A stretch of 64,000 nucleotides of DNA from Nocardioides mesophilus (GTDB lineage: Bacteria; Actinomycetota; Actinomycetes; Propionibacteriales; Nocardioidaceae). Numbering within the stretch: the first letter of the stretch is position 1; the number at the start of each line of letters is the position of its first letter. Below the pieces are notes generated by a model that did not search any database, had not been told where the DNA came from, and saw nothing but the letters and a program-made list of their open reading frames with translations. Location: NCBI RefSeq assembly GCF_014395785.1, contig NZ_CP060713.1, positions 4,306,501 to 4,370,500 on the forward strand. Reading direction: 5' to 3'. Made by a program: the position numbers and the translations under genes. Positions 8,516 to 22,109 of this stretch are shown in pieces.

Positions 8516-10084
8516 TCAGAGTCGTGAGCCGATGGCCGCGAAGGCCGTGCACATGATCAGGAGCCCGACGATCAGCGGCGCGGTGAAGCGCAGCCACTGG
8601 TCGTAGCGCACCTTGGCGAGCGCCAGCCCACCCATGACCACCGCCGAGGTCGGGGTGATCAGGTTCACCACGCCGGAGGCCGACTGGTACGCCGTCACCA
8701 CCATCGCCCGGGAGACATTGGCGAAGTCGCCGAGCGGCGCCAGGATCGGCATCGCCAGCGCGGCATGGCCGGACGTCGAGGGCACCAGGAAGGCCAGCGG
8801 CAGGTTGATCAGGAACATCAGGCCCCCGAAGACCGCGGAGGAGGTGTTGCTCACGGCGTTCTCCATGGAGTGCAGCACCGTGTCGGTGATCTGGGAGTTG
8901 TTCATGATCACCGTGACCCCACGGGCGAGCACGATGATCAGCCCGACGCCGACGAAGTCGCCCGCCCCACGCACCAGCGTGTCGGTCAGCCGCTTCTCCC
9001 CCAGACCGCCGATGAGTCCGACCACGATCGACATCACGATGAAGAGGGCCGCCAGCTCCGGGAAGTACCAGTCCAGCTGCCAGCTGTAGCTCGTCGCGTC
9101 CGGGCCGTTGATCACCTGCGCCCACGGGACGATCGCGAAGATCATGAACGCGAAGGTGAGCGCGACGATCGTCAGCACGCTCTTGTGCTTGCGGGTGAGC
9201 GGCGGTGGCGTCCCGACCAGGTCGGGGTTCTTCTCCGCGAACTCCCCCTGCGTCCCGGCGCCTCGAGCCGCGAGCACCTGGTCCTCCGCCCGGAGGCCCA
9301 CCAGCGACTTCGACGGGTCCGCCTTGACCCGGCGGGCATAGCGGAGCACGAACAGGATGCTCAGCGGCACCAGGACGAGGTACATCACGAACCGGAACAC
9401 GATGCCGTCCCCGATCGAGATGCCGGCGGCGTCCGAGGCGACGCCGGTCGCGAAGGGATTCACGGTGGAGGCCAGCACCCCGACCCCCGCGCCGATCATG
9501 ATCGTGGCCGCGGCCACCATCCGGTCGTAGCCCAGGCTGAGGATGAGCGGTACGACGAGCGCGTAGAAGCCCAGCGTCTCCTCGGCCATCCCCTCGGTGG
9601 TCCCGCCGATCGAGAACAGCACCATCAGCATCACGATCACCAGCGCGCCCCGGTGCCCGTAGCGCTTGGCGACATGGGCGACGCCGCTGTCGATCGCACC
9701 GGTGGACATCGACATGGCGATGAAGATGCCGATCGCGATCACGAACATGAAGACGCCGGCAGCACCGAAGAGCTCGCCGGTCTCGTAGGGGCCGATGAAG
9801 CCGGTGTCACCACTGCGGATCCCGTAGAGCCCGTTGATCGGGCTCAGGAACAGCTGCATCAGTCGGTCGGTGAACGACAGCCCCGCGTCCACGGAGTGGT
9901 AGGTGCCGGGGACCGGTGCCCCGGTCTCGGGGTTCAGCTTGTAGGCCCCCGTGGGGATGATGAACGCCAGCACCCACACCAGCACGGTGACGCCGAAGAG
10001 CACGGTGAACGCGCTCGGGAAGGTGAACCTCTTCTTCTGGCCGGCTGGCTCCACGCCGGCCGACTGGACATCTGCGGTGGCCAC
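8516..10084 (-). CDS. YfcC family transporter, probable arginine/ornithine exchanger
   Basis: 522 residues from GTG 10084, preceded by GGGAAGGGA. About 11-12 membrane segments, with conserved family motifs FSIGGTTEGMAEET and VNLITPTSAVVMGG. YfcC proteins include the ArcD-type arginine/ornithine transporters of some arginine deiminase clusters. The gene is divergent from arcA-arcB-arcC, so exchange of arginine for ornithine is the most economical role. The family also contains C4-dicarboxylate-like and peptide-like transporters, so the substrate rests on context. An upstream in-frame start at 10222 is rejected because it would run through the structured intergenic region. Confidence 0.87.
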   Translation of the reverse strand: MATADVQSAGVEPAGQKKRFTFPSAFTVLFGVTVLVWVLAFIIPTGAYKLNPETGAPVPGTYHSVDAGLSFTDRLMQLFLSPINGLYGIRSGDTGFIGPYETGELFGAAGVFMFVIAIGIFIAMSMSTGAIDSGVAHVAKRYGHRGALVIVMLMVLFSIGGTTEGMAEETLGFYALVVPLILSLGYDRMVAAATIMIGAGVGVLASTVNPFATGVASDAAGISIGDGIVFRFVMYLVLVPLSILFVLRYARRVKADPSKSLVGLRAEDQVLAARGAGTQGEFAEKNPDLVGTPPPLTRKHKSVLTIVALTFAFMIFAIVPWAQVINGPDATSYSWQLDWYFPELAALFIVMSIVVGLIGGLGEKRLTDTLVRGAGDFVGVGLIIVLARGVTVIMNNSQITDTVLHSMENAVSNTSSAVFGGLMFLINLPLAFLVPSTSGHAALAMPILAPLGDFANVSRAMVVTAYQSASGVVNLITPTSAVVMGGLALAKVRYDQWLRFTAPLIVGLLIMCTAFAAIGSRL

Positions 10085-10150
10085 GGGGGTCCCTTCCCTT
10101 CTCGACGTCTGACACCTCAGGACAGCAGCGGGACGGTTGCTCGGACCGCT

Positions 10151-10196
10151 GCCCAACGGCCCCTCGCAGGGGGCCGTTGGGCCCTGAGTAGGGCCC
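10151..10196. promoter_or_regulatory. Overlapping hairpins and DosR-like box in the yfcC-arcA intergenic region
   Basis: A perfect 13-base inverted repeat (10151-10163 with 10170-10182, loop TCGCAG) is followed by GGGCCC repeated at 10179-10184 and 10191-10196. The second pair shares bases 10179-10182 with the first stem, so the two hairpins are mutually exclusive. The segment 10171-10184 (GGGCCGTTGGGCCC) also resembles a DosR box. Confidence 0.5.
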
Positions 10197-10206
10197 CGCC
10201 GACGGA

Positions 10207-10220
10207 GCACCCTTGGGCCC
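10207..10220 (+). promoter_or_regulatory. Second DosR-like box upstream of arcA (weaker)
   Basis: GCACCCTTGGGCCC matches GGGACCTTCGGCCC at about 10 of 14 positions, with the second half nearly intact. It lies 36 bases downstream of the box at 10171-10184 and 43 bases before the arcA start. Its value depends on the other boxes. Confidence 0.3.
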
Positions 10221-10263
10221 ACAGGCGCCTGCCCGAGGCTGCCTGCCCGAGAAGAGGTCGTCG

Positions 10264-11487
10264 ATGAGCATGCACGTGGACTCCGAGGTCGGACGACTCA
10301 AGCAGGTGATCCTGCACCGGCCGGACCTGGAGCTGAAGAGGCTGACCCCGACCAACAAGGACGCCTACCTCTTCGACGACGTCCTGTGGGTCAAACGGGC
10401 CAAGCAGGAGCATGACGCGTTCGCCGAGTCTCTGCGCGACCTCGACGTCACCGTGCACATGCTGGACACCCTCCTGCGCGAGACCGTGGCCGTCCCCGAG
10501 GCGAAGGACTACATCCTCCGGGCCTCCCTCGACGAGCGGGTCTACGGGCCGATGGCGCTCGACGCGCTGTTCGCGATGTTCACCGCGCTCGACGACGACA
10601 GCCTGGTGAAGTACCTCATCGGGGGGATCACCAAACGCGAGCTGCTGGACCATGTCGAGGAGCCGAAGTCGCTGGTCGTCCAGGCCCTCGACCTCGAGGA
10701 CATGCTGCTGCCGCCGCTGCCGAACCACATGTTCACCCGGGACACCTCGGCCTGGATCTACGACGGCGTCTCGATCAACTCGATGCGCAAGCGTGCTCGT
10801 GAGCGCGAGACGATCCACTACGAGGCGATCTACCGCTGGCACCCGCTCTTCGCCGATGCCGACTTCGAGGTGTGGTCCGAGGGCACCGTCAACGGCATCG
10901 CCACCACCGAGGGCGGCGACCTGCACGTGCTCGGGAACGGCGCGGTCCTGGTCGGGATGAGTGAGCGGACCACTGCGCAAGGCATCGAACGGCTCGCCGG
11001 CAGGCTCTTCGCCAAGGGTTCCGCGCAGCGGATCGTCGCGCTGGCGATGCCGCAGAAGCGGGCGTTCATGCACCTCGACACGGTGATGAGCATGGTCACC
11101 GAGGACACGTTCACCAAGTACGCCGGCCTCGGGATGCTGCCGTCGTACACGATCGAGCCGGGCGGCACGGAGAAGGAGCTGAAGATCACCGCGCACGCCC
11201 CCGAGGACATGCACCGCGCGATCGCGGACGCCCTCGGCGTGGAGCGGATCCGCGTGCTCACGCCCACCCAGGACGTGCACGCAGCGGAGCGCGAGCAGTG
11301 GGACGACGGCTGCAACGTGCTCGCGGTCCGTCCCGGCGTGGTCGTCGCCTACGAGCGGAACGTCACGACCAACACCTTCCTGCGCCGGGAGGGTGTCGAG
11401 GTGGTGACCATCCAGGGCAGCGAGCTCGGACGCGGCCGCGGCGGACCCCGCTGCATGACCTGCCCCATCGAGCGCGAAGGGATCTGA
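10264..11487 (+). CDS. arcA: Arginine deiminase
   Basis: 407 residues. It hydrolyses L-arginine to citrulline and ammonia, the first step of the ATP-yielding deiminase pathway. Visible motifs are the N-terminal [37 protein letters not shown] (catalytic His/Asp area) and the nucleophile C397 in GGPRCMTCP. Length matches bacterial enzymes. ATG 10264 is chosen because homologues begin just before the HVDSEVG-like motif. It is one base ahead of arcB and forms arcABC. The leader contains strong hairpins and DosR-like boxes, suggesting oxygen- or energy-responsive control. Confidence 0.96.
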
Positions 11488-11488
11488 C

Positions 11489-12490
11489 ATGGCCTTCAAC
11501 CTGCGGCATCGCAGCTTCGTCAAGGAGGTCGACTTCACCCCCAAGGAGTGGCGTTTCCTGCTCGACCTCGCGGCCGAGCTCAAGCTGGCCAAGTACGCCG
11601 GCTCCGAGCAGCCCAGGCTCGCGCGCAAGAACATCGCGCTGATCTTCGAGAAGACTTCGACCCGCACCCGGTGCGCCTTCGAGGTCGCCGCCTTCGACCA
11701 GGGCGCGCGCGTCACCTACCTGGACCCGTCGGGCTCCCAGATCGGGCACAAGGAGTCCATGGAGGACACCGCCCGCGTGCTGGGCCGGATGTACGACGGC
11801 ATCGAGTACCGCGGCTCGGCCCAGGAGAACGTCGAGGTCCTCGCCGCGTTCTCCGGGGTTCCGGTCTGGAACGGGCTGACCACCGAGTGGCACCCGACCC
11901 AGTCGCTGTGCGACATGCTGACGATGCGCGAGCACACGTACAAGCACGACGAGGAGATCTCGTTCGCCTTCCTCGGCGACGCCCACAACAACGTCGGCAA
12001 CTCGTTGCTGGTGGCCGGCGCGATGATGGGGATGGACGTCCGGATCGTCGCGCCCCGGGAGCTGTGGAACCACGACGGGGTGGTCAAGCAGGCCCGGGAC
12101 ATCGCCGCCGAGACCGGCGCCCGGATCACCCACACCGAGGACGTGGGCGAGGGCGTGGACGGCGTGGACTTCGTCTACACCGACGTCTGGGTCTCGATGG
12201 GCGAGCCCATGGAGACCTGGGAGGCGCGTATCGACCTGCTGCGGCCCTACCAGGTCAACCCGGACCTGCTGACGCTGACCGGGAACCCGCAGGTCAAGTT
12301 CATGCACTGCCTGCCCGGCTTCCACGACCGGCACACCAAGGTCGGCGAGGAGCTGTTCCAGAAGACCGGAATGACCGCCCTCGAGGTCACCGACGAGGTG
12401 TTCGAGTCGCGGCACTCGATCGTCTTCGACCAGGCCGAGAACCGGATGCACACCATCAAGGCCGTGCTGGTCGCGACGTTGGGCGGCTGA
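11489..12490 (+). CDS. arcB: Ornithine carbamoyltransferase (catabolic)
   Basis: 333 residues. The carbamoyl-phosphate site STRTR ([13 protein letters not shown]), HPTQ, and the ornithine/catalytic motif [10 protein letters not shown] are intact. In this operon it phosphorolyses citrulline to ornithine and carbamoyl phosphate; catabolic type is inferred from its position between arcA and arcC, one base from each neighbour. An anabolic ArgF would normally sit in an arginine biosynthesis cluster. Confidence 0.95.
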
Positions 12491-12491
12491 G

Positions 12492-13460
12492 GTGCGCATC
12501 GTGATCGCGCTCGGCGGCAACGCGCTGCTGCAGCGTGGCCAGCGGCCCGACTGCGACGTCCAGGAAGCCAACGTCGCCCGGGCGGTCGCCGCGCTGGCAC
12601 CGCTCGCCGCCCATCACGAGATCGTGATCACGCACGGCAACGGCCCCCAGGTGGGCGTGCTGGCGCTGCAGAGTGCCTCCGACCCGCACCTCACGACGCC
12701 GTACCCGTTCGACGTCTTGGGCGCCCAGACGCAGGGTATGATCGGCTACTGGCTGCTGCAGGCGATGCAGAACGCGCTCCCGGGCCGCCAGGTCGCGGCG
12801 ATCATCAACCAGACCCTGGTGGAGGCGAACGATCCCGCCTTCCAGTCCCCCAGCAAGTTCGTCGGGGAGGTGTACGACGAGGCCGAGGCGCACCGGCTCG
12901 CGGAGCTGCGGGGCTGGACCGTGCGACCCGATGGTGACGTGTGGCGGCGGGTGGTGGGCTCGCCGAAGCCCCGGCGGGTCGTGGAGACCCGGCTGATCCG
13001 GCTCCTCCTCACCAGCGGTGCCGTGGTGATCTGCGCCGGAGGCGGCGGGGTCCCGGTGATCCGCAACGAGCAGGGTCACCTCGAGGGGGTCGAGGCCGTC
13101 GTCGACAAGGACCTGACCACGTCGGTGCTCGCCGAGGCGCTCGAGGCCGACGCGATGCTCGTCCTGACCGACGTCGCCAACGTGGCGCGGCACTACGGCT
13201 CCCCGCAGGCCACGCCGATCCTGCGCGCCACCCCGGCGGCGCTGCGCCGGGAGTCGTTCCCGGCGGGCTCGATGGGTCCCAAGGTGGAGGCGGTGTGCCG
13301 CTTCGTGGAGGTCACCGGCGACATGGCGGCGATCGGCAGGCTCGAGGACGCCGTCGCCATCATCGAGGGAACGGCCGGCACCGTCGTGACCCCGGCCGGG
13401 GACTACGGCGGACCCGACGACCTCCGCCCCGGGAGGCCCGCACCGTCCGGGCCGGCCTGA
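12492..13460 (+). CDS. arcC: Carbamate kinase
   Basis: 322 residues from GTG 12492. The amino-acid-kinase start is RIVIALGGNALLQRG. Further family motifs are HGNGPQVG, ICAGGGGVPV, DKDLTTSVLA and the terminal FPAGSMGPKVEA with GTVVTP. It transfers the phosphate of carbamoyl phosphate to ADP, giving ATP, ammonia and CO2, and completes the deiminase pathway. The start is one base past the arcB stop. The C-terminal extension after GTVVTP is proline-rich and probably unstructured. Confidence 0.95.
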   Translation: MRIVIALGGNALLQRGQRPDCDVQEANVARAVAALAPLAAHHEIVITHGNGPQVGVLALQSASDPHLTTPYPFDVLGAQTQGMIGYWLLQAMQNALPGRQVAAIINQTLVEANDPAFQSPSKFVGEVYDEAEAHRLAELRGWTVRPDGDVWRRVVGSPKPRRVVETRLIRLLLTSGAVVICAGGGGVPVIRNEQGHLEGVEAVVDKDLTTSVLAEALEADAMLVLTDVANVARHYGSPQATPILRATPAALRRESFPAGSMGPKVEAVCRFVEVTGDMAAIGRLEDAVAIIEGTAGTVVTPAGDYGGPDDLRPGRPAPSGPA

Positions 13461-13510: not shown

Positions 13511-15195
13511 GTGAGCCACCCGCACCCAGAACTCGCCCTGCCCCGAAACTGCCCCGCAACGGGCTCCGCGTCGTCGGACTCGGCGGGCTCGGTGAGATCG
13601 GCCGCAACATGACCGTCTTCGAGCACGCCGGAAAGCTCCTGATCGTCGACTGCGGCGTGCTCTTCCCCGAGGAGCACCAGCCCGGCATCGACGTGATCCT
13701 GCCCGACTTCAGCTGGATCCGGGACCGGCTCGACAGCATCGTCGCGGTGGTGCTGACCCACGGGCACGAGGACCACATCGGTGGCGTCCCCTACCTGCTG
13801 CGCGAGCGCGCGGACATCCCGGTGGTCGGGTCCCGCCTGACGCTGGCGCTGATCGACGCCAAGCTCAAGGAGCACCGGATCAAGCCGCGGCTGATGCCGG
13901 TCAAGGAGGGCGAGACCAAGAAGCTCGGCCCCTTCGACCTCGAGTTCCTCGCGGTCAACCACTCGATTCCGGACGGCCTGGCCGTCGCCATCCGCACCCC
14001 GGCGGGCGTGGTGCTGCACACCGGCGACTTCAAGATGGACCAGTTCCCGCTCGACGGCCGGATCACCGACCTGCGCGGTTTCGCGCGGCTCGGCGAGGAG
14101 GGCGTCGACCTGTTCATGGTCGACTCCACCAACGCCGAGGTGCCCGGATTCACGATGTCCGAGCGCGACCTCAGCCCGGCGATCGACACCGTGTTCCGCA
14201 CCGCACCCCGCCGCATCATCGTCTCCAGCTTCGCCAGCCACGTGCACCGCATCCAGCAGGTCCTCGACGCCGCGCACGCGCACGGCCGCAAGGTCGCCTT
14301 CGTCGGCCGTTCGATGGTGCGCAACATGGGGGTCGCCCGCGACCTCGGCTACCTCCGCGTCCCGGAGAACCTGATCGTGCCGCTCGAGCAGCTCGAGCGG
14401 ATGAAGGCCGACAAGGTCGCGCTGGTCTGCACCGGCTCCCAGGGCGAGCCGATGGCCGCGCTCTCCCGGATGGCCAACCGTGACCACAAGATCCGGGTCG
14501 GCGAGGGCGACACCGTGCTGATGGCCAGCTCGGTCATCCCGGGCAACGAGAACGCCATCTCCGGCGTGATCAACGGACTGACCCGGTGGGGCGCCAACGT
14601 GGTCCACAAGGGCAACGCCAAGGTCCACGTCTCCGGCCACGCGAGCGCGGGCGAGCTCGTCTACTGCTACAACATCGTCCGACCCGGCAACGTGATGCCG
14701 GTCCACGGCGAGTGGCGGCACCTGCGCGCCAACGGCGACCTCGCCATCAGCACCGGCATCGATCCTTCACGCGTGGTGCTCGCCGACGACGGGGTGGTCG
14801 TCGACCTGGTCGACGGGCGCGCCAAGATCACCGGGAAGGTGCCCGCGGGCAACGTCTACGTCGACGCCGCGACCGTCGGCGGCGCCACCGAGGCGTCGCT
14901 GCGGGACCGGCGGACGCTGGCCGAGGAGGGCGTCGTGACGGTGCTGGCGATCGTCGACGCCGACAGCGGCAAGCTGGCGGAGCCGCCGGACTTCCTGATC
15001 CGCGGCTTCGTCCACGACCAGGCGGCGTTCGAGGCCGCGGTGCCCGTGGTCGCCAAGACGCTGGAGCGTGCGGCACTCGAAGGGATCGGCGACTCCCACC
15101 AGCTCGAGCAGATGATCACCCGCGACGTGGGCCAGTGGGCGCACAAGAAGTTCCGTCGCAGCCCGCTGATCATCTCCATCGTCATCGACGCCTGA
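13511..15195 (+). CDS. rnj: Ribonuclease J, with a single-base frame break near the start
   Basis: Metallo-beta-lactamase/beta-CASP ribonuclease acting in RNA turnover and rRNA maturation. Zinc motif LTHGHEDHIGG, the beta-CASP segment and the C-terminal domain ending FRRSPLIISIVIDA are present. GTG 13511 reads VSHPHPELALP, the expected actinobacterial N-terminus, but the next conserved part LPRNGLRVVGLGGLGEIGRN is in another frame. One extra C in the CCCC run at 13550-13553 restores a 561-residue protein. As given, the longest uninterrupted product starts at ATG 13609 (528 residues) and lacks the first beta strand. Sequencing error is the likeliest cause because RNase J is usually important for growth. 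Confidence 0.88.
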
Positions 15196-16082: not shown

Positions 16083-16316
16083 CAGGTCGGTTCCCTTCCC
16101 CCCACGTCGTGGCTGAGTACGCCGCACACGGGGGTCTGACCCGAGGCAGGGCATGGGGAGGGTACCCACCTCGGCCGTATCCGATGCGACCGGCGGCGAT
16201 ACATCTGCGTCCGCTCCCCCGCGATGGGTGGGGGCCGCGGGTGCCATCGGATCCGACCGGCCTTGAGGACGCGCCGCGTGGCGACCCCGGCAGCGGCATT
16301 TCGGAGCAGACCCGAC

Positions 16317-17114
16317 ATGATCGGCGCCATGACCACGCGCCGCGGACTGTTCGTCGCCCCGTTCGATGCGCTCGCCGACCCCGGGCTTGTGGGCGACCTT
16401 GCCGCCAGCGCCGACGCGGCCGGCTGGGACGGCTTCTTCGTCTGGGACCACTTGCAGTACGGCGACCGCGTCAGCGCGATCGCCGACGTGTGGACCTGTT
16501 GCGCGGCTGTCGCGATGCGGACCGAGAAGCTGCTGTTCGGGCCGATGGTGACTCCGCTGGCGCGGCGCCGGCCGCAGGTCCTGGCTCGGCAGGCCGCGAG
16601 CCTGGCGGTGCTCTCGGGTGGCCGGTTCGTGCTCGGCCTGGGGCTGGGCGACGACTGGGTCGGAGAGTTCAGCTCCTTCCGCGACGAGCCCGATCCGAAG
16701 GTGCGCGGCCGGATGCTCGACGAGGGACTCGAGGTCCTGACCGCCCTGCTCTCCGGGGAGCAGGTGGACCACGACGGGAACCACTACACCGTGCACAGCG
16801 CCGGCTTCCACCCGGCGCCCTCGGTGCCGATCTGGCTGGCGGGGCGGTTCGGCAACCAGGCGCCACTGCGCCGGGCTGCGAGACATGACGGGTTCTTCGT
16901 CATCGGCCTGGACTCGCCCGGCGACCTCGGCGAGGTGAGCGCCGCCCTCTCCGAGCATGAACCGGCGCCCGGCTTCGAGCTGGTGATCGACCTCCAGCCC
17001 GAGCAGGCTCCGGTGCCGTGGCTCGACCGCGGCGCCTCCTGGGTGCTCACCCGGATCGGCCCGTTCGACCTCGACCTCACCGAGGTCCGGCGGATCGTCG
17101 AGGCGGGCCCCTGA
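16317..17114 (+). CDS. LLM class flavin-dependent oxidoreductase
   Basis: 265 residues from ATG 16317; GGAG about 10 bases upstream supports this start over ATG 16329. The luciferase-like fold is indicated by GLFVAPF, WDGFFVWDHLQYG, LLFGPMVTPLARRRP, QVLARQAASL, SGGRFVLGLGLGDD and VPIWLAGRFGNQAPLRRAARHDGFF. These enzymes use FMN or F420; which one cannot be told here. It is shorter than typical (~300), with a compact C-terminus. Alone on this strand and followed by a 257-base intergenic region with strong inverted repeats. Confidence 0.88.
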   Translation: MIGAMTTRRGLFVAPFDALADPGLVGDLAASADAAGWDGFFVWDHLQYGDRVSAIADVWTCCAAVAMRTEKLLFGPMVTPLARRRPQVLARQAASLAVLSGGRFVLGLGLGDDWVGEFSSFRDEPDPKVRGRMLDEGLEVLTALLSGEQVDHDGNHYTVHSAGFHPAPSVPIWLAGRFGNQAPLRRAARHDGFFVIGLDSPGDLGEVSAALSEHEPAPGFELVIDLQPEQAPVPWLDRGASWVLTRIGPFDLDLTEVRRIVEAGP

Positions 17115-17177
17115 GCCGCGCCACGTGAGCCGCGACCGCTGACCGGCGTCGCAACGTGCCTCCGCGACGGCGTGCCA

Positions 17178-17247
17178 GGGCCGAAGGACACCTGTCGGGG
17201 GTCCGTCGCGCAGCCTGCCGGCGGCGGCACGACGGACCTTCGGCCCC
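17178..17247. promoter_or_regulatory. Inverted pair of DosR-like boxes in a nested inverted repeat
   Basis: GGGCCGAAGG (17178-17187) is the exact reverse complement of CCTTCGGCCC (17237-17246). Inside, GGTCCGTCG (17200-17208) pairs with CGACGGACC (17230-17238). Read as binding sites, 17233-17246 is CGGACCTTCGGCCC (13 of 14 to GGGACCTTCGGCCC) and the complement of 17178-17191 is GTGTCCTTCGGCCC (12 of 14). The element lies 125 bases before the SDR/acyl-ACP-reductase-like pair. A terminator for the preceding gene is an alternative. Confidence 0.5.
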
Positions 17248-17371
17248 TTTCTGGGTCTGCGGTGCGCGGGGCGCCCGGACGCCTCCTCGAGGCACACCGT
17301 CGACCGGTCGGCGTGGGTAGCATCGAGTCCTCGGGGGGTGGTTCGCCGGTGGGCCGGAGGAGGCGTTTCGC

Positions 17372-18463
17372 GTGACGGTGCTGCTGATGACGGGTTTCCC
17401 CGGCTTCCTCGGCTCGGCGCTGCTCCCCCGGTTGCTCGCCCGCCGCGACGGCGTACGCGCCGTCTGCCTGGTGCAGGAGCAGCACTTGGCCGAGGCGCAC
17501 GGCAGGCTCCGCGCGATCGAGGCCACCCATCCGCACACGCACGGTCGGATCACGCTGGCGACCGGGGACATCACGGCTCCCGATCTCGGCCTGTCCGCCC
17601 CCGACCTCGCCGACCTCGAGGACGTCACCGAGGTCTGGCACCTCGCGGCGGTCTACGACCTCGCCGTCGCCGAGACCGTCGCCCGCCGGGTCAACGTGGA
17701 CGGGACGGCCCAGGTCCTCGCCTTCTGCCGGACCCGGCCGCACCTGACCCGGCTGCAGTACGTCAGCACCTGCTACGTCAGCGGCGAGTATGCCGGCGAG
17801 TTCGCCGAGGACGACCTGGACGTGGGGCAGACCTTCCGCAACCACTACGAGTCCACCAAGTTCCAGGCGGAGGAGCTGGTGCGGGCGGCCATGGACGACG
17901 GCCTGCCGGCGACCATCTACCGTCCGGGGATCGTGGTCGGGGACTCGCGCACCGGAGAGACGCAGAAGTACGACGGCCCCTACTTCCTCGCCGCGTTCCT
18001 GCGCCGGCAGCTGCCGGTCGCCGTGGTCCCCGCGGTCGGCAACCCCGACCGGGTCCGGGTGTGCCTGGTGCCCCGCGACTTCGTCGTCGAGGCGATGGAC
18101 CAGCTCTCGGTGCTCGACACCTCCCGGGGCCGGTGCTACGCGCTCACCGATCCCCACCCGCCCACGGTCCGTGCTCTCGTCGACACCTTCGCCCGGCACC
18201 TGGGCAAACGCGTGCTGTGGGTGCCGGTGCCGCTCGGCGCCACCCGGGCGGCGGTGGGACGCGTGCCGGGGCTCGAGTGGTTGCTGGGCCTGCCGGCCGA
18301 GGCGCTGGACTACTTCGCCTCACCGACCACCTACTCCACCGCCAACACGCTCGCCGACCTCGTCGGCACCGGCCTGACCTGCCCGCGGTTCGAGACCTAC
18401 GCCGACCGGTTGCTGGACTTCATGGCCGGCCACCCCGAGGTCGACGCCAAGGCGATGGTCTAG
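17372..18463 (+). CDS. FAR/thioester-reductase-like extended SDR
   Basis: 363 residues from GTG 17372, with a strong GGAGGAGG 8 bases upstream. The NAD(P) motif is TGFPGFLGSALL, the substrate region VWHLAAVYD, the active-site strand YVSTCYVSG and the catalytic YESTK (Y-x3-K). The C-terminal part resembles the NAD-binding_4 domain of fatty acyl-CoA reductases and carboxylic acid reductase R-domains. It therefore probably reduces an acyl thioester or a related carbonyl. It lies 43 bases before an acyl-ACP-reductase-like gene on the same strand, behind DosR-like boxes. Substrate unproven. Confidence 0.85.
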   Translation: MTVLLMTGFPGFLGSALLPRLLARRDGVRAVCLVQEQHLAEAHGRLRAIEATHPHTHGRITLATGDITAPDLGLSAPDLADLEDVTEVWHLAAVYDLAVAETVARRVNVDGTAQVLAFCRTRPHLTRLQYVSTCYVSGEYAGEFAEDDLDVGQTFRNHYESTKFQAEELVRAAMDDGLPATIYRPGIVVGDSRTGETQKYDGPYFLAAFLRRQLPVAVVPAVGNPDRVRVCLVPRDFVVEAMDQLSVLDTSRGRCYALTDPHPPTVRALVDTFARHLGKRVLWVPVPLGATRAAVGRVPGLEWLLGLPAEALDYFASPTTYSTANTLADLVGTGLTCPRFETYADRLLDFMAGHPEVDAKAMV

Positions 18464-18506
18464 CAGGCAACGAGGTCAGCGCCACACCGCACACCAGGGA
18501 GTCACC

Positions 18507-20573
18507 ATGCCGACCCGGACAGCGTCCACCGCACTCGTGGTCAACGTCAGCCTGACCAGCTCGCAGCGCGACTACGACGAGCACGTCACCTTCCTCGACA
18601 AGGACTTCCGCATCGTCCGGGTCGGTACGGACGGGGACGTCACCGCCGCCGAGGCGGCCGTGCGGACCTGGGCGGCCGAGGCGGACGCGATCGCGGTCAC
18701 GGGCATCCGCGAGGCTCGGGCCGCCGGGCTGTACGACGGCGAGCTCGCCGCCATCGAGCAGGTCCGCCGGGCCACGTCGCAGGTGCCGGTCGCCGACGGG
18801 CACGCCCTGCGCGACGTGCTCCAGGAGTGGGCGATCCGGCACGTTCAGAACGAGATGCCCGGCTTCTTCAACAACGCCCGCACGGTCGTGCTCGGTGGCA
18901 TGAACCACGGTCGGGCCACTCGCGTGCTGCGCGAGTACACCCAGAACCTGCAGTTCGCCGACCCGTTGCTGCGGCTCGACCTGCCGGCCAAGCTGGACTC
19001 GCACCCGGTTCTCGGGCTGGCGGCGCAGGCGGGCCTGTGGCCGGTCAAGATGCTTCCGGGAGCGGTGAAGTCCCAGATCAAGACCCCGGGCACCCGGATC
19101 AGCAACGCGCTGGCACGCCAGGCCGCCCACGACTGCGACGTCGTGGTCGCGACCTTCGAGGAGCTGCTCGGGTTCGGGCTGGAGGACCTCGCCGGGAAGA
19201 CGGTGATCACCTCCTCGGTCTCCGACGAACAGCTCGCCGAGCTGGCCAGGCGTGACGTGGACATGGTCCTCGACACGACTCCCCAGCCGTTCCAGGTGAC
19301 CGTCCAGGCGGCGGTGCTCGAGGCGATGATGCTGGCCTCGGTCCCCGGCAGCGGTGCCCTGACCAACGACGACCTCCTGGACATGATCGTCGCCGCCGGT
19401 CTCGAGCCGCGGGTGCTGTACCCGAACGGGCCGCGCCGCAAGAGCCGGTTCGCCTTCGTCATCCACCCGTTGTCGACGAAGTTCTTCCGCAACGTGGAGC
19501 CCCTCGGCACCGTCGCCAAGGTGGCGCCACCGGTGATGCTCGACGTCCTGGAGAAGACGCTCGCCTATGCGCCGCCCTTCACCTACAGCCACGTCACGGG
19601 GATCAAGTCCGCCACCGGGGCGGAGGCCGAAGGCTGGTTGATCACCGTGGGCGGCACACCGAAGGAGCTGATGGCGCACAGCCCGGAGTTCACCTACGCG
19701 CGGCTGCTCGCCGCTGCCGAGATGGCCCGGAAGCTCGGGGCCCAGGTGATGGGACTCGGCGCGTTCACCAAGGTCGTCGGGGACGCCGGGGTGACCGTGG
19801 CCAAGCAGGCGCCGCTGCCGATCACCACCGGGAACAGCTACAGCGCCTCGGGAGCGTTGTGGGCGGCCCACGAGGCGCTTGACCGGCTCGGGATCGCCGA
19901 GCTCGACGAACAGGGGCGGATCAGGGGCAAGGCCATGGTGGTCGGCGCGTCCGGCTCCATCGGCTCGGTCTGCGCGCGGCTGCTCGCGCTCTCCAGCGAC
20001 GAGCTCTGGCTGGTCTCACCGGAGTCGGCCAAGCTGCTCGCGCTCAAGCACGACATCGAGCGGGGCGACCACCGGGCGCGCATCCAGGTCGCGGCCACGC
20101 CCGACGATCACCTCTCGGACATGGACCTGATCGTCACCGCGACCTCGGGAGCCGGCAAGCGGGTCCTCGACATCATGGCGGTGAAGCCGGGCTGCGTGAT
20201 CACCGACGTCGCACGTCCGCTGGACCTGTCGGCGGAGGAGGTGGCCAAGCGCCCGGACGTGCTGGTGATCGAGTCCGGCGAGATCGAGCTGCCCGGTGAC
20301 GTGCACATGAAGAACATCGGGCTGCCTCCCGGTGTGGCCTACGCCTGCATGGCTGAGACCGTCGTCCTGGCCCTGGAGGGCCGCTACGAGACGTTCACCG
20401 TCGGCCGCGACATCGAGTGGGAGAAGGTGAAGGAGATCTACCGGCTCGGGCTCAAGCACGGGATGAAGCTCGCCGCGATCTCCGGGGTCAACGGGGTGTT
20501 CACCGACGAGGACTTCGAGCGGATCCGCGGCCTCGCCCTCGAGCACCGAGCGCCGGCCGACGCCGCGGTCTGA
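18507..20573 (+). CDS. Large dehydrogenase with acyl-ACP reductase-like C-terminal half
   Basis: 688 residues. From about 440 onward it follows the cyanobacterial aldehyde-forming acyl-ACP reductase (AAR): TTGNSYSASG, a Rossmann motif VVGASGSIGSVCARLLA, VIESGEIELPGD, then AYACMAETVVLALEG, whose C614 matches the AAR thioester-forming cysteine, and YETFTVGRDIEWEKV. AAR is only ~340 residues; the first ~330 residues here form an extra domain I do not recognise (conserved-looking FFNNARTVVLGGMNHGR and VVVATFEELLGFGLEDL). The probable reaction is acyl thioester to aldehyde, perhaps coupled to the SDR upstream. ATG 18507 follows GGAG. Confidence 0.75.
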   Translation: MPTRTASTALVVNVSLTSSQRDYDEHVTFLDKDFRIVRVGTDGDVTAAEAAVRTWAAEADAIAVTGIREARAAGLYDGELAAIEQVRRATSQVPVADGHALRDVLQEWAIRHVQNEMPGFFNNARTVVLGGMNHGRATRVLREYTQNLQFADPLLRLDLPAKLDSHPVLGLAAQAGLWPVKMLPGAVKSQIKTPGTRISNALARQAAHDCDVVVATFEELLGFGLEDLAGKTVITSSVSDEQLAELARRDVDMVLDTTPQPFQVTVQAAVLEAMMLASVPGSGALTNDDLLDMIVAAGLEPRVLYPNGPRRKSRFAFVIHPLSTKFFRNVEPLGTVAKVAPPVMLDVLEKTLAYAPPFTYSHVTGIKSATGAEAEGWLITVGGTPKELMAHSPEFTYARLLAAAEMARKLGAQVMGLGAFTKVVGDAGVTVAKQAPLPITTGNSYSASGALWAAHEALDRLGIAELDEQGRIRGKAMVVGASGSIGSVCARLLALSSDELWLVSPESAKLLALKHDIERGDHRARIQVAATPDDHLSDMDLIVTATSGAGKRVLDIMAVKPGCVITDVARPLDLSAEEVAKRPDVLVIESGEIELPGDVHMKNIGLPPGVAYACMAETVVLALEGRYETFTVGRDIEWEKVKEIYRLGLKHGMKLAAISGVNGVFTDEDFERIRGLALEHRAPADAAV

Positions 20574-20658
20574 CTCCGCGAGCTCGTCCCCCGTGGGGGA
20601 TGCGCGTCCTTCCGTGCCGTCGCACGGTGGGACCAGCCGCACGAAGGGAGCCGTCGCG

Positions 20659-22109
20659 ATGAACGACGACGTCAACGAGGTCGAACGTCTACGGGCGCGG
20701 GTCGCCGAGCTCGAGAACCAACCCTCCGCCCACGGCGCCGGTGGGACGCCGGCCCGTCGGACGGGGCACCGGTCCGCCTGGTGGGCGGTCTCCTCCGCGG
20801 TGCTGCTCACCCTCGCGTGCGTGCTCGCGCCGCTCTCGGCCGTGGCGGTGTGGGCCAACGCGCAGATCTCCGACACCGACGCCTACGTCCAGACGGTGGC
20901 GCCGTTGGCCGAGGACCCCGCGGTGCAGAGCGCGGTGGCCGACAAGGTCACGGTGCTGATCTTCGACAACCTCGACATCGAGCAGATCACCACGGACGCG
21001 CTCAACACGCTGGCGGAGCAGCCGAACGTCCCGCCCCGGGCTGCCGCGCTGCTACCCGGGCTGGCCGTGCCCATCACCGACGGCGTCAAGAGCTTCACCC
21101 GCGACCAGGTCGGTGCCTTCGTCGCCAGCCCGCAGTTCGCCCGGATCTGGGAGGAGGTCAACCGCGCAGCGCACACCCAGGTGGACAAGCTCCTGTCCGG
21201 CAACGAGGGCGGGGCGGTGAGCGCGCAGGGCGACACCATCACGCTCAACCTCGGACCGATCGTGGCGCAGGTCAAGGACCGGTTGGTCGCCCAGGGCTTC
21301 TCGCTGGCCCAGAACATCCCGCCCGTCGACCAGTCCTTCGTGCTCGTCCAGTCCGACGCGATCACCTCGGCCCAGAGCTTCTACCAGCTGCTGAACAACC
21401 TGGGCTTCTGGCTGCCGGTGATCGTCGTCGTCCTCTTCGTCGGTGGCGTGATGCTCGCCCGCGACCGTCGCCGGGCGCTGCTCAAGGGAGCCCTCGGGCT
21501 CACCGGAGCCATGATCGTCCTCGGCGTGCTCCTGGCACTGGCGCGATCGTGGTACGTCGGCGCCACACCCGCCGACATCCTCACCGAGAACGCCGCGGGC
21601 AGCGTCTTCGACACCCTCGTGCGCTTCCTGCGGACGGCGCTGCGGGCCACCGCAGTGCTGGGGCTGGTGCTGGCGCTGGCTGCCTTCCTGACCGGACCGG
21701 CCTCCGGTGCCGTCCGGACGCGTTCGGCCTTCTCGGCGGGATCGGCAGTCTCCGGGCGGGGGCCCAGGAGGCCGGCTGGAGCACGGGCCGCTTCGGTGTC
21801 TGGGTCTACGCCCACCGCGCCGCGCTGCGCATCGGCGTACTGCTGCTGGCCGGGCTCGTGCTGATGTTCTGGACCCGACCCTCCGGGATGGTCGTGGTCG
21901 GTGTCGCGATCGCCGCCGTCGTGGTGCTGGCTCTCCTCGAGTTCCTCGCCGCTCCGCCGCGGCCGACCCCGGCCACCGCGGGGCCGGTCCCGGCCAGGCC
22001 CACGCTCCCCCGCCAGCGGCCGCCGGAGCCGGCGGACCAGGCCGAGCCCGCGGCGCCGGCCACGACGGAGGGCGCACCCGAGCCCGAGCATGCGCCGGAG
22101 CAGCGCTGA
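20659..22109 (+). pseudogene. Multi-pass membrane protein, frame broken by one base
   Basis: ATG 20659 follows GAAGGGAG. The N-terminus has a short coiled segment (EVERLRARVAELE), a membrane helix (AVLLTLACVLAPLSAVAVW) and a ~220-residue extracytoplasmic part, then more helices from about residue 250. After RTRSAFSAG the frame is lost; the other frame continues IGSLRAGAQEAGW, a helix FWTRPSGMVVVGVAIAAVVVLALLEFL and a Pro/Ala/Glu tail. The span is 1451 bases, one short of a 483-residue protein; a missing G in the run at 21738-21740 explains it. Family members are common in Nocardioides but without known function. Confidence 0.75.

Follow-up and report, generated by a model that had tools for sequence, protein, structure and literature searches.

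What two adjacent genes of Nocardioides mesophilus, one encoding an SDR and the other an AAR-like protein, might make together was addressed by analysis of a window comprising the whole 64-kb stretch of DNA around them (NZ_CP060713.1) and of related loci. On balance, the pair appears to constitute a two-gene fatty-alcohol-forming module that often supplies wax esters. The SDR gene (17372..18463, + strand; 363 aa, GTG start) was assigned to PF07993 (NAD_binding_4) from the ORF list and profile matches. The second gene (18507..20573, + strand; 688 aa, ATG start) encodes a fused N-domain and AAR domain and is a putative aldehyde-forming acyl-thioester reductase. As stated in the preliminary description, the SDR gene lies 5' of its partner on the same strand at a distance of 43 bases (18464-18506), its product contains both TGFPGFLGSALL and YESTK, and ribosome-binding-site-like sequences precede both genes: GGAGGAGG (17356..17363, +), 8 nt 5' of the GTG at 17372, and AGGGAG (18496..18501, +), 5 nt 5' of the ATG at 18507, each read directly from the sequence. 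Scans for promoters and terminators (17050-20750) and against Rfam (17000-20800) returned nothing. The outer neighbours in the window encode an LLM-class oxidoreductase and a membrane protein.

The C-terminal AAR domain of the 688-aa protein (residues 314-688; 19446..20570, +) carries the NADPH motif G480xxG483xxG486. Cyanobacterial AAR (6jzq) matched residues 354-659 (E 9e-14) and, by structure comparison, was aligned with the domain over 326 residues (Z 33.2, rmsd 3.1 Å). The best match of the domain was the N-terminal reductase domain of PigE, which aligned with residues 314-653 (E 1.5e-30). Against the acyl-ACP reductase model TIGR04058 the protein scored 70.6 bits, below the curated equivalog cut-off of 449.7; the AAR fold and GxxGxxG nucleotide motif of that family were both found, and a Cys was aligned at the putative catalytic position. 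This residue, Cys614 (codon 20346..20348, +), aligns with AAR C294 and PigE C296. In published work the equivalent Cys accepts the acyl group in AAR, and a like role is proposed for it in PigE/TamH. C614 was kept in 78/78 single or first copies and in 18/18 stand-alone AARs, and GxxGxxG in 89/89; L066, which does have the Cys, was omitted from the Cys count because it matches only residues 312-678.

The window protein thus has in common with cyanobacterial AAR (TIGR04058; 6jzq, 6jzy) a fold (residues 314-672), an NADPH motif and a Cys at the catalytic position, but differs in its length of 688 aa, its extra N-domain, its SDR partner and the lack of ADO in the genome. That no ADO was in view had been remarked on earlier, and this extended to the whole genome at the sensitivity of the search, as PF11266 gave 0 matches there and the same search was positive in a Synechococcus control. 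PigE and TamH are bifunctional thioester reductase-aminotransferases, whereas the window pair is without an aminotransferase; PF00202 (class III aminotransferase) matched neither window protein, and a fusion of the PigE/TamH type was therefore not found.

The earlier label AAR-like is justified by the AAR homology and leaves out much of the protein, which is twice the length of AAR and in which residues 1-313 (18507..19445, +) form a domain of their own that belongs to no known family. Sequence searches with this N-domain against Pfam, NCBIfam and PDB gave no match, the best E value of its profile against PDB was at chance level (0.14), and the Foldseek and VIA-align rows were taken up by the AAR domain. 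Derivation of the N-domain from a decayed AAR by internal duplication was rejected at the sensitivity of an hhalign comparison of the two halves (probability 0.5%). Since the PigE match begins at PigE residue 1-2, PigE is without such a domain. The N-domain is the usual partner of the window-type AAR, and may dock the acyl donor or hand on the aldehyde; L066 has an AAR of the window type and no N-domain in the 8 kb of sequence at its locus. In other Actinomycetota, N-domain and AAR were encoded by separate adjacent genes in 18/18 fetched of 45 loci. A class III aminotransferase lay between them in 7/18 of these split operons, an assembly of N-domain, aminotransferase and AAR that recalls PigE/TamH, and alcohol is therefore not the universal product.

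The SDR matched PF07993 by Pfam search (E 9.7e-49), and its best family match was the N-terminal half of AcrB (E 8.1e-76). Over nearly its full length it aligns with this half of AcrB (PRK07201; Maqu_2507, Mtb FCR1), covering positions 4-353 of 657 of the profile (NF005539, PRK07201) at 256.1 bits, under the cut-off of 549. Conserved residues comprise G8/G11/G14, S132/T133, Y159 and K163. The Acr1-like C-terminal half of AcrB is absent from the SDR, beside which an AAR-type protein is encoded instead; the overall conversion is probably the same. In AcrB the aldehyde is formed by the C-terminal, Acr1-like half; as the SDR matches the other half, it is by elimination the presumptive aldehyde reductase. 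A C-terminal Sterile domain is a defining feature of FarA-type FAR; the window pair gave no Pfam match to Sterile, HMGR or adh_short at E up to 1, and in this respect is not of the FarA type. A full-length AcrB of 672 aa is also encoded in this genome and shares 32% identity with the SDR in its N-half; its presence counts against the proposed alcohol-forming role of the pair.

Gene-neighbourhood conservation, which the preliminary description had put forward as its own test, was determined in 53 non-redundant actinobacterial loci, window included. L100, L102, L103, L105, L106, L107 and L110 were treated as duplicates of named loci because their contigs were of equal length, and L118 (G247) and G162 were excluded as weak matches to different proteins. 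The SDR gene was directly upstream of the AAR-like gene on the same strand in 46/53 loci, and in the 45 relatives 4-93 bases separated the end of its match from the AAR match. This recurrence argues that the pair is not a product of chance and leaves the proposed interpretation unrefuted. Divergence of the SDR and of the AAR was correlated (r 0.87, 46 pairs), with 0/2000 permutations giving a value as high. Three of the seven loci lacking the SDR (L038, L115, L117), which form one clade nested inside SDR-bearing ones, have an adh_short SDR directly downstream. No replacement was seen in the other four (L004, L006, L015, L101), two of which have <500 bp of downstream sequence.

A wax synthase had been reported as not in view, which is true of the window and not of the genome, where four WS/DGAT matches were found, all outside the window. 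WS/DGAT was present in 292/294 genomes of the family, in which it can serve TAG; mere presence is therefore uninformative, and copy number and linkage were used. In genus g7 the mean number of WS/DGAT matches was 5.8 in 14 carriers vs 3.3 in 154 non-carriers (p 7e-8), shared descent being ignored in this and the other co-occurrence counts. Linkage of the kind suited to alcohol supply for wax esters was found in relatives, WS/DGAT adjoining the pair in 13/53 actinobacterial loci; it was not seen beside the pair in the remaining 40, which include the window and 7 relatives with <1.5 kb of downstream sequence. Neighbours were tallied in two sets (A4 and A5) of 39 sequences each, picked from 52 and 47 called neighbours, A5 also holding two added window genes. 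WS/DGAT was downstream in 7/39 members, a figure inflated by up to two because L013 and L020 were hand-placed at tblastn WS/DGAT hits in A5. The Condensation model, to which WS/DGAT proteins give matches as well, was found in 4/39, and other families in at most 3/39 members, among the matches listed.

In Desulfobacterales, WS/DGAT was matched in 44/50 genomes carrying a long AAR vs 5/241 non-carriers, with 6/50 carriers giving no match, and was located ≤10 kb from the long AAR on the same contig in 19/50 carriers. A tandem AAR copy has been added in 11 loci of this order, and the Cys was lost in 11/11 such copies. The window-kind SDR was not seen in the tandem loci, and in 11/11 the next gene after the tandem AAR genes encodes an alpha/beta hydrolase segment, the contig ending within this gene in L046.

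We infer the reactions and their direction, together with the fatty-acyl substrate and the use of the product, as follows. The 688-aa protein would bind an acyl thioester (acyl-ACP or acyl-CoA), the acyl group would move onto Cys614, and the acyl-enzyme would be reduced by NAD(P)H to give a free aldehyde, whose release is modelled on AAR and on proposals for PigE and TamH. The SDR would turn the aldehyde into an alcohol, to be esterified by a WS/DGAT, whose gene adjoins the pair in some relatives and lies at other sites in this genome. The earlier suggestion that one gene forms an aldehyde and the other reduces it is favoured by homology, by conservation of the catalytic residues, by replacement of the partner and by linkage to WS/DGAT.

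The aldehyde or alcohol might instead be destined for ether lipids, amines or a specialised metabolite. Such a use would agree with the aminotransferase of the split operons, as in amine formation by PigE/TamH, with the lack of a WS/DGAT adjacent to the window pair, and with the statement in PMC11948995 that alcohol-forming reductases can supply ether lipids. It is nonetheless unlikely given the linkage to WS/DGAT in both Actinomycetes and Desulfobacterales, and an alkyl-DHAP synthase was not recognised next to the pair. A candidate ether lipid link through the FAD oxidase of L003 was dropped, its nearest family, GlcD, being matched at 121.5 of 567.9 bits, far under the cut-off.

Both chemistries are reversible in principle, so that the module could run oxidatively in wax or alcohol breakdown, the SDR oxidising fatty alcohols and the AAR-like enzyme converting aldehyde to acyl-CoA; the hydrolase gene of the tandem loci could then encode a wax ester hydrolase. 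Against this direction, which is judged quite unlikely, AAR, PigE and TamH are described in the literature as thioester-reducing, and the recurrent neighbour WS/DGAT is a synthetic enzyme. Among the matches listed, moreover, no acyl-CoA dehydrogenase family was matched by at least two of the 39 neighbours, and enoyl-CoA hydratase was matched by 1/39 in each tally.

Among solved structures, the SDR is closest in fold to thioester reductase domains (MxaA 4w4t, Z 35.0, 343 residues, 3.2 Å), giving it the R-domain fold of NRPS/CAR thioester reductases, and the thioester reductase model TIGR01746 matched it at E 2.1e-39, under its cut-off. On these grounds each protein might work independently as a thioester reductase, the two differing in their acyl donor (e.g. 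ACP and CoA). The SDR is a one-domain protein that is not in a carrier-protein, NRPS or CAR module. Its better match to the AcrB N-half, and its replacement at three loci with an adh_short SDR, which suits an aldehyde/alcohol step better, render two such reductases improbable. That the genes are unrelated neighbours without joint function would be in keeping with the window's outer neighbours, which do not recur in the tallies among the matches listed, and is very improbable, being already contradicted by the 46/53 pairing, the congruent divergence and the replacement by another SDR.

The favoured fatty-alcohol-forming module was compared with other known routes, which in PMC11948995 comprise Acr1 with an aldehyde reductase, FarA and the HMGR-like FcrA. 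Conversion of an acyl thioester to an alcohol for wax esters, the overall reaction proposed for the pair, is held in common with these, and the pair is set apart from them by having no HMGR, Sterile or adh_short match at E up to 1. Its enzyme combination matches none of the described routes found, and recurs in distantly related bacteria. Of the wax-ester-synthase bacteria surveyed in the same source, 1% have FarA, 31% AcrB and 26% FcrA, so that many seem to be without any of the three; the partner aldehyde reductase of Acr1 is called unknown in PMC11948995 and unidentified in PMC8401914. The module offers a specific candidate to fill part of this alcohol-forming gap, as a defined family with a new domain, and could help in engineering the production of fatty alcohols or waxes.

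More tentatively, the loci could represent a further, undescribed fatty-alcohol route for wax esters in Actinomycetota and Desulfobacterales, in which an N-domain/AAR-type Cys reductase forms the aldehyde and the second step is filled in three ways. The AcrB-N-like SDR would be the first and the adh_short SDR the second. The third, in Desulfobacterales, would be an AAR that turned into an aldehyde reductase after duplication and loss of the catalytic Cys; hydride transfer to a free aldehyde could still take place without this residue. Elsewhere in Actinomycetota, the N-domain/AAR core would supply an aminotransferase instead. The module also offers a natural experiment, with one putative aldehyde-forming core, interchangeable second enzymes and a Cys-less paralogue. 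Counting against wax ester supply, the SDR neighbour was present in a Bdellovibrionota relative (L068) whose genome gave no WS/DGAT match.

A simple ORF script called the 363-aa SDR gene at 17372-18463 (plus strand, GTG start) and, after a gap of 43 bases, the 688-aa AAR-like gene at 18507-20573 (plus strand, ATG start), in agreement with the positions and gap of the preliminary description. The SDR start is preceded by GGAGGAGG and the AAR-like start by AGGGAG. The genome around the window comprises one contig of 4.49 Mb. A luciferase-like (PF00296) oxidoreductase gene at 16224-17114, 257 bp upstream of the SDR gene, did not recur among the families listed in the neighbour tallies of homologous loci. 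Positions 8516-13460 hold an arginine deiminase pathway cluster comprising, in order, a DcuC-type carrier (minus strand), arginine deiminase, ornithine carbamoyltransferase and an amino acid kinase-family gene, followed by RNase J at 13609.

The AAR-like protein matched the PigE reductase domain with residues 314-653 (E 1.5e-30) and cyanobacterial AAR with residues 354-659 (E 9e-14). The predicted structure of the 688-aa protein had a mean pLDDT of 83.0, and its AAR part fitted the AAR structure 6jzq over 326 residues (Z 33.2). Cys614 aligns with C294 of AAR and C296 of PigE; in the accessible parts of PMC8341465 and PMC9594044, the AAR cysteine at this position is acyl-accepting, and the same is proposed for PigE and TamH. 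Both the fold and the residues give good support to the prediction that the AAR domain would convert an acyl thioester, through acyl-Cys614, to an aldehyde. The SDR would then convert the aldehyde to an alcohol, a predicted step supported by family likeness and by partner replacement, and a wax ester synthase (WS/DGAT) would esterify the alcohol, a predicted use supported by WS/DGAT linkage in relatives. Residues 1-313 (the N-domain) matched no Pfam or NCBIfam family and, by sequence, no PDB entry. That the N-domain is a copy of the second half of the protein was rejected by hhalign of the two halves.

The SDR matched PF07993 in Pfam (E 9.7e-49). Its best NCBIfam model was PRK07201 (AcrB; E 8.1e-76), which was matched only at positions 4-353 of 657 and scored 256.1 bits, below its cut-off of 549; the SDR corresponds to the N-terminal half of AcrB, whereas the C-terminal half is absent. 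The nearest structures to the predicted SDR model (mean pLDDT 90.5) were thioester reductase domains (4w4t at Z 35.0) and a plant FAR (7eoz at Z 32.3). In an alignment of 31 sequences G8, G11, G14, Tyr159 and Lys163 were invariant, and Ser132 and Thr133 were conserved in 30.

Alcohol routes given in the accessible part of PMC11948995 are FarA, AcrB, Acr1 plus an unknown aldehyde reductase, and the HMGR-like FcrA. The pair lacks a defining feature of FarA and also one of AcrB, and a domain search of its proteins returned no HMGR or adh_short match. In PMC3522743, FCR2 and the AcrB-type enzyme FCR1 are reported to reduce acyl-CoA, giving aldehyde and alcohol, and to supply wax esters; the likeness to acyl-CoA reductase is placed in the C-terminal part of FCR1. 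A title and abstract search of the open-access literature, with subscription journals mostly outside its scope and absence thus unproven, found no paper treating this combination. In the text available, acyl-ACP reductase appears in PMC8401914 solely as a heterologous enzyme, 'reductase' does not occur in PMC4520822, and 'acyl-ACP' does not occur in PMC10351704. This genome also codes for a full-length canonical AcrB of 672 aa (L119:8156-10174; PRK07201, 937.7 bits), so that two alcohol-forming systems may coexist.

One scan of genome contigs returned 67 loci, of which 41 were actinobacterial; the 26 others included L066 and L068 and were otherwise nearly all named as Desulfobacterales or Deltaproteobacteria. 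Many loci come from metagenome bins, in which contamination is possible. A family search matched 21 of 294 genomes (19 at full length) and contributed 11 additional non-redundant actinobacterial loci, giving 53 with the window. The preliminary description had asked whether this neighbourhood is conserved across actinobacteria, and the pairing was indeed kept in 46 of the 53, with the SDR directly upstream on the same strand. The SDR match ended 4-93 bases before the AAR match in 45 relatives; at locus L021 the SDR match was in two pieces. Divergence of the two proteins was correlated (r 0.87, 46 pairs; none of 2000 permutations reached this value), as co-inheritance would give. The pair had no match in any of the six other genomes of the same genus in the sample, and this patchy spread suggests transfer or repeated loss. 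A PF07993 SDR again adjoins the AAR-like gene in L068 (Bdellovibrionota, 33% identity).

The SDR is absent in the seven remaining actinobacterial loci. In three of these (L038, L115 and L117), the AAR-like gene is instead followed immediately by an adh_short SDR. These SDRs share 72-76% mutual identity, those of L115 and L117 were assigned to short-chain dehydrogenases, and the three loci form one clade nested among SDR-bearing loci in a quick phylogenetic tree (SH-aLRT 100). That another type of reductase has refilled the place is an argument that the product of the 688-aa enzyme undergoes a second step. No replacement reductase was found in the sequence examined for L004, L006, L015 and L101, which for L004 and L006 included less than 500 bp downstream.

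In 13 of the 53 loci a WS/DGAT gene adjoins the pair at a distance of up to about 200 bp (12 same strand, 1 convergent); this may be an undercount because seven relatives have less than 1.5 kb downstream. These genes are found on either side of the pair and fall into several diverged subtypes. In the neighbour tallies WS/DGAT was the commonest downstream family (7 of 39, of which two had been placed by hand); upstream it was matched by 2 of 39, against 3 for TetR. In one genus of the family sample (g7, probably Nocardioides), scored to a maximum of 8 matches per genome, the 14 carriers had a mean of 5.8 WS/DGAT matches and the 154 others 3.3 (p 7e-8; p 1.2e-5 once the adjacent copy was subtracted, both ignoring shared descent). 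All four WS/DGAT matches of this genome lie outside the window, and no ADO (aldehyde decarbonylase/deformylating oxygenase) was found in it. A 1060-aa frame in one g7 genome (L118:7986-11168, minus strand) combines a class III aminotransferase at residues 234-628 with weak AAR likeness and may be a TamH-like fusion.

The N-domain profile matched 48 of 396 Actinomycetota genomes. Three matches were long fused frames, this genome among them; the other 45, all outside its class and in genomes of 0.8-2.8 Mb, were shorter frames, mostly near 310 aa. Eighteen of the 45 were examined, and in every one a stand-alone AAR with the Cys follows the N-domain gene on the same strand, directly in 11 and after a class III aminotransferase in 7; in L145, the one aminotransferase-type locus analysed for this, the aminotransferase is accompanied by a Polyketide_cyc/lipid-transport protein. 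In 15 of the 18 the N-domain gene is preceded by a gene for a conserved protein whose HTH match is weak and sub-threshold. The gene set of these small-genome loci (L136-L153) comprises a regulator-like protein, the N-domain protein of no family, an aminotransferase in some, and AAR; coaX-, greA- and lysS-like genes were seen nearby by eye in the loci displayed. Since N-domain and AAR adjoin as separate genes, they look like functional partners later fused. Aldehyde from the N-domain/AAR core would thus be able to pass to an aminotransferase, as in PigE and TamH, or to a reductase. L066:877-2007 encodes a 376-aa AAR, 59% identical to the C-terminal domain in the window, with a RimK-like ligase upstream and no N-domain in the 8 kb examined, so the N-domain is a usual and not an obligate partner.

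First AAR-like copies of Desulfobacterales were 49-53% identical to the window protein (61% for one partial match). Of the 26 genomes from which the non-actinobacterial loci came, 23 had WS/DGAT (missing in those of L044, L066 and L068); in a phylum sample of 297 genomes, one of the 26 included, 13 had it. Among 291 genomes sampled at order level, 50 had the long AAR (one as a fragment only), 49 had WS/DGAT (48 over cut-off) and 44 had both (Fisher p 8.5e-40); without the 15 genomes behind our own loci the table was 30, 5, 5, 236 (p 7.7e-30), neither value being phylogeny-corrected. WS/DGAT lay on the same contig within 10 kb in 19 of the 50 carriers and within 5 kb in 16.

A second AAR-like gene stands in tandem in 11 of the 26 loci (L041-L048, L061, L063 and L064). 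The Cys was kept in all 78 single or first copies counted and replaced in all 11 second copies (Gly in 10, Ser in 1), which retain the NADPH glycines and form one clade (support 100). We read the second copy as a duplicate that probably lost acyl transfer; aldehyde reduction by this copy is a guess. By tree groups, 13 of 24 Desulfobacterales loci are single-copy and lack both the SDR and a tandem copy, though further AAR copies may be present elsewhere in their genomes, as in most carriers of the order-level search. Two Desulfobacterales genomes (G1201 and G1265) have extra N-domain-only frames. In all 11 tandem loci the AAR genes are followed by a gene for a protein of roughly 570-700 aa (L043:10121-11839 and equivalents; partial in L046) that has an alpha/beta hydrolase segment and only weak PDB matches; the single-copy locus L049 has a homologue on the opposite strand.
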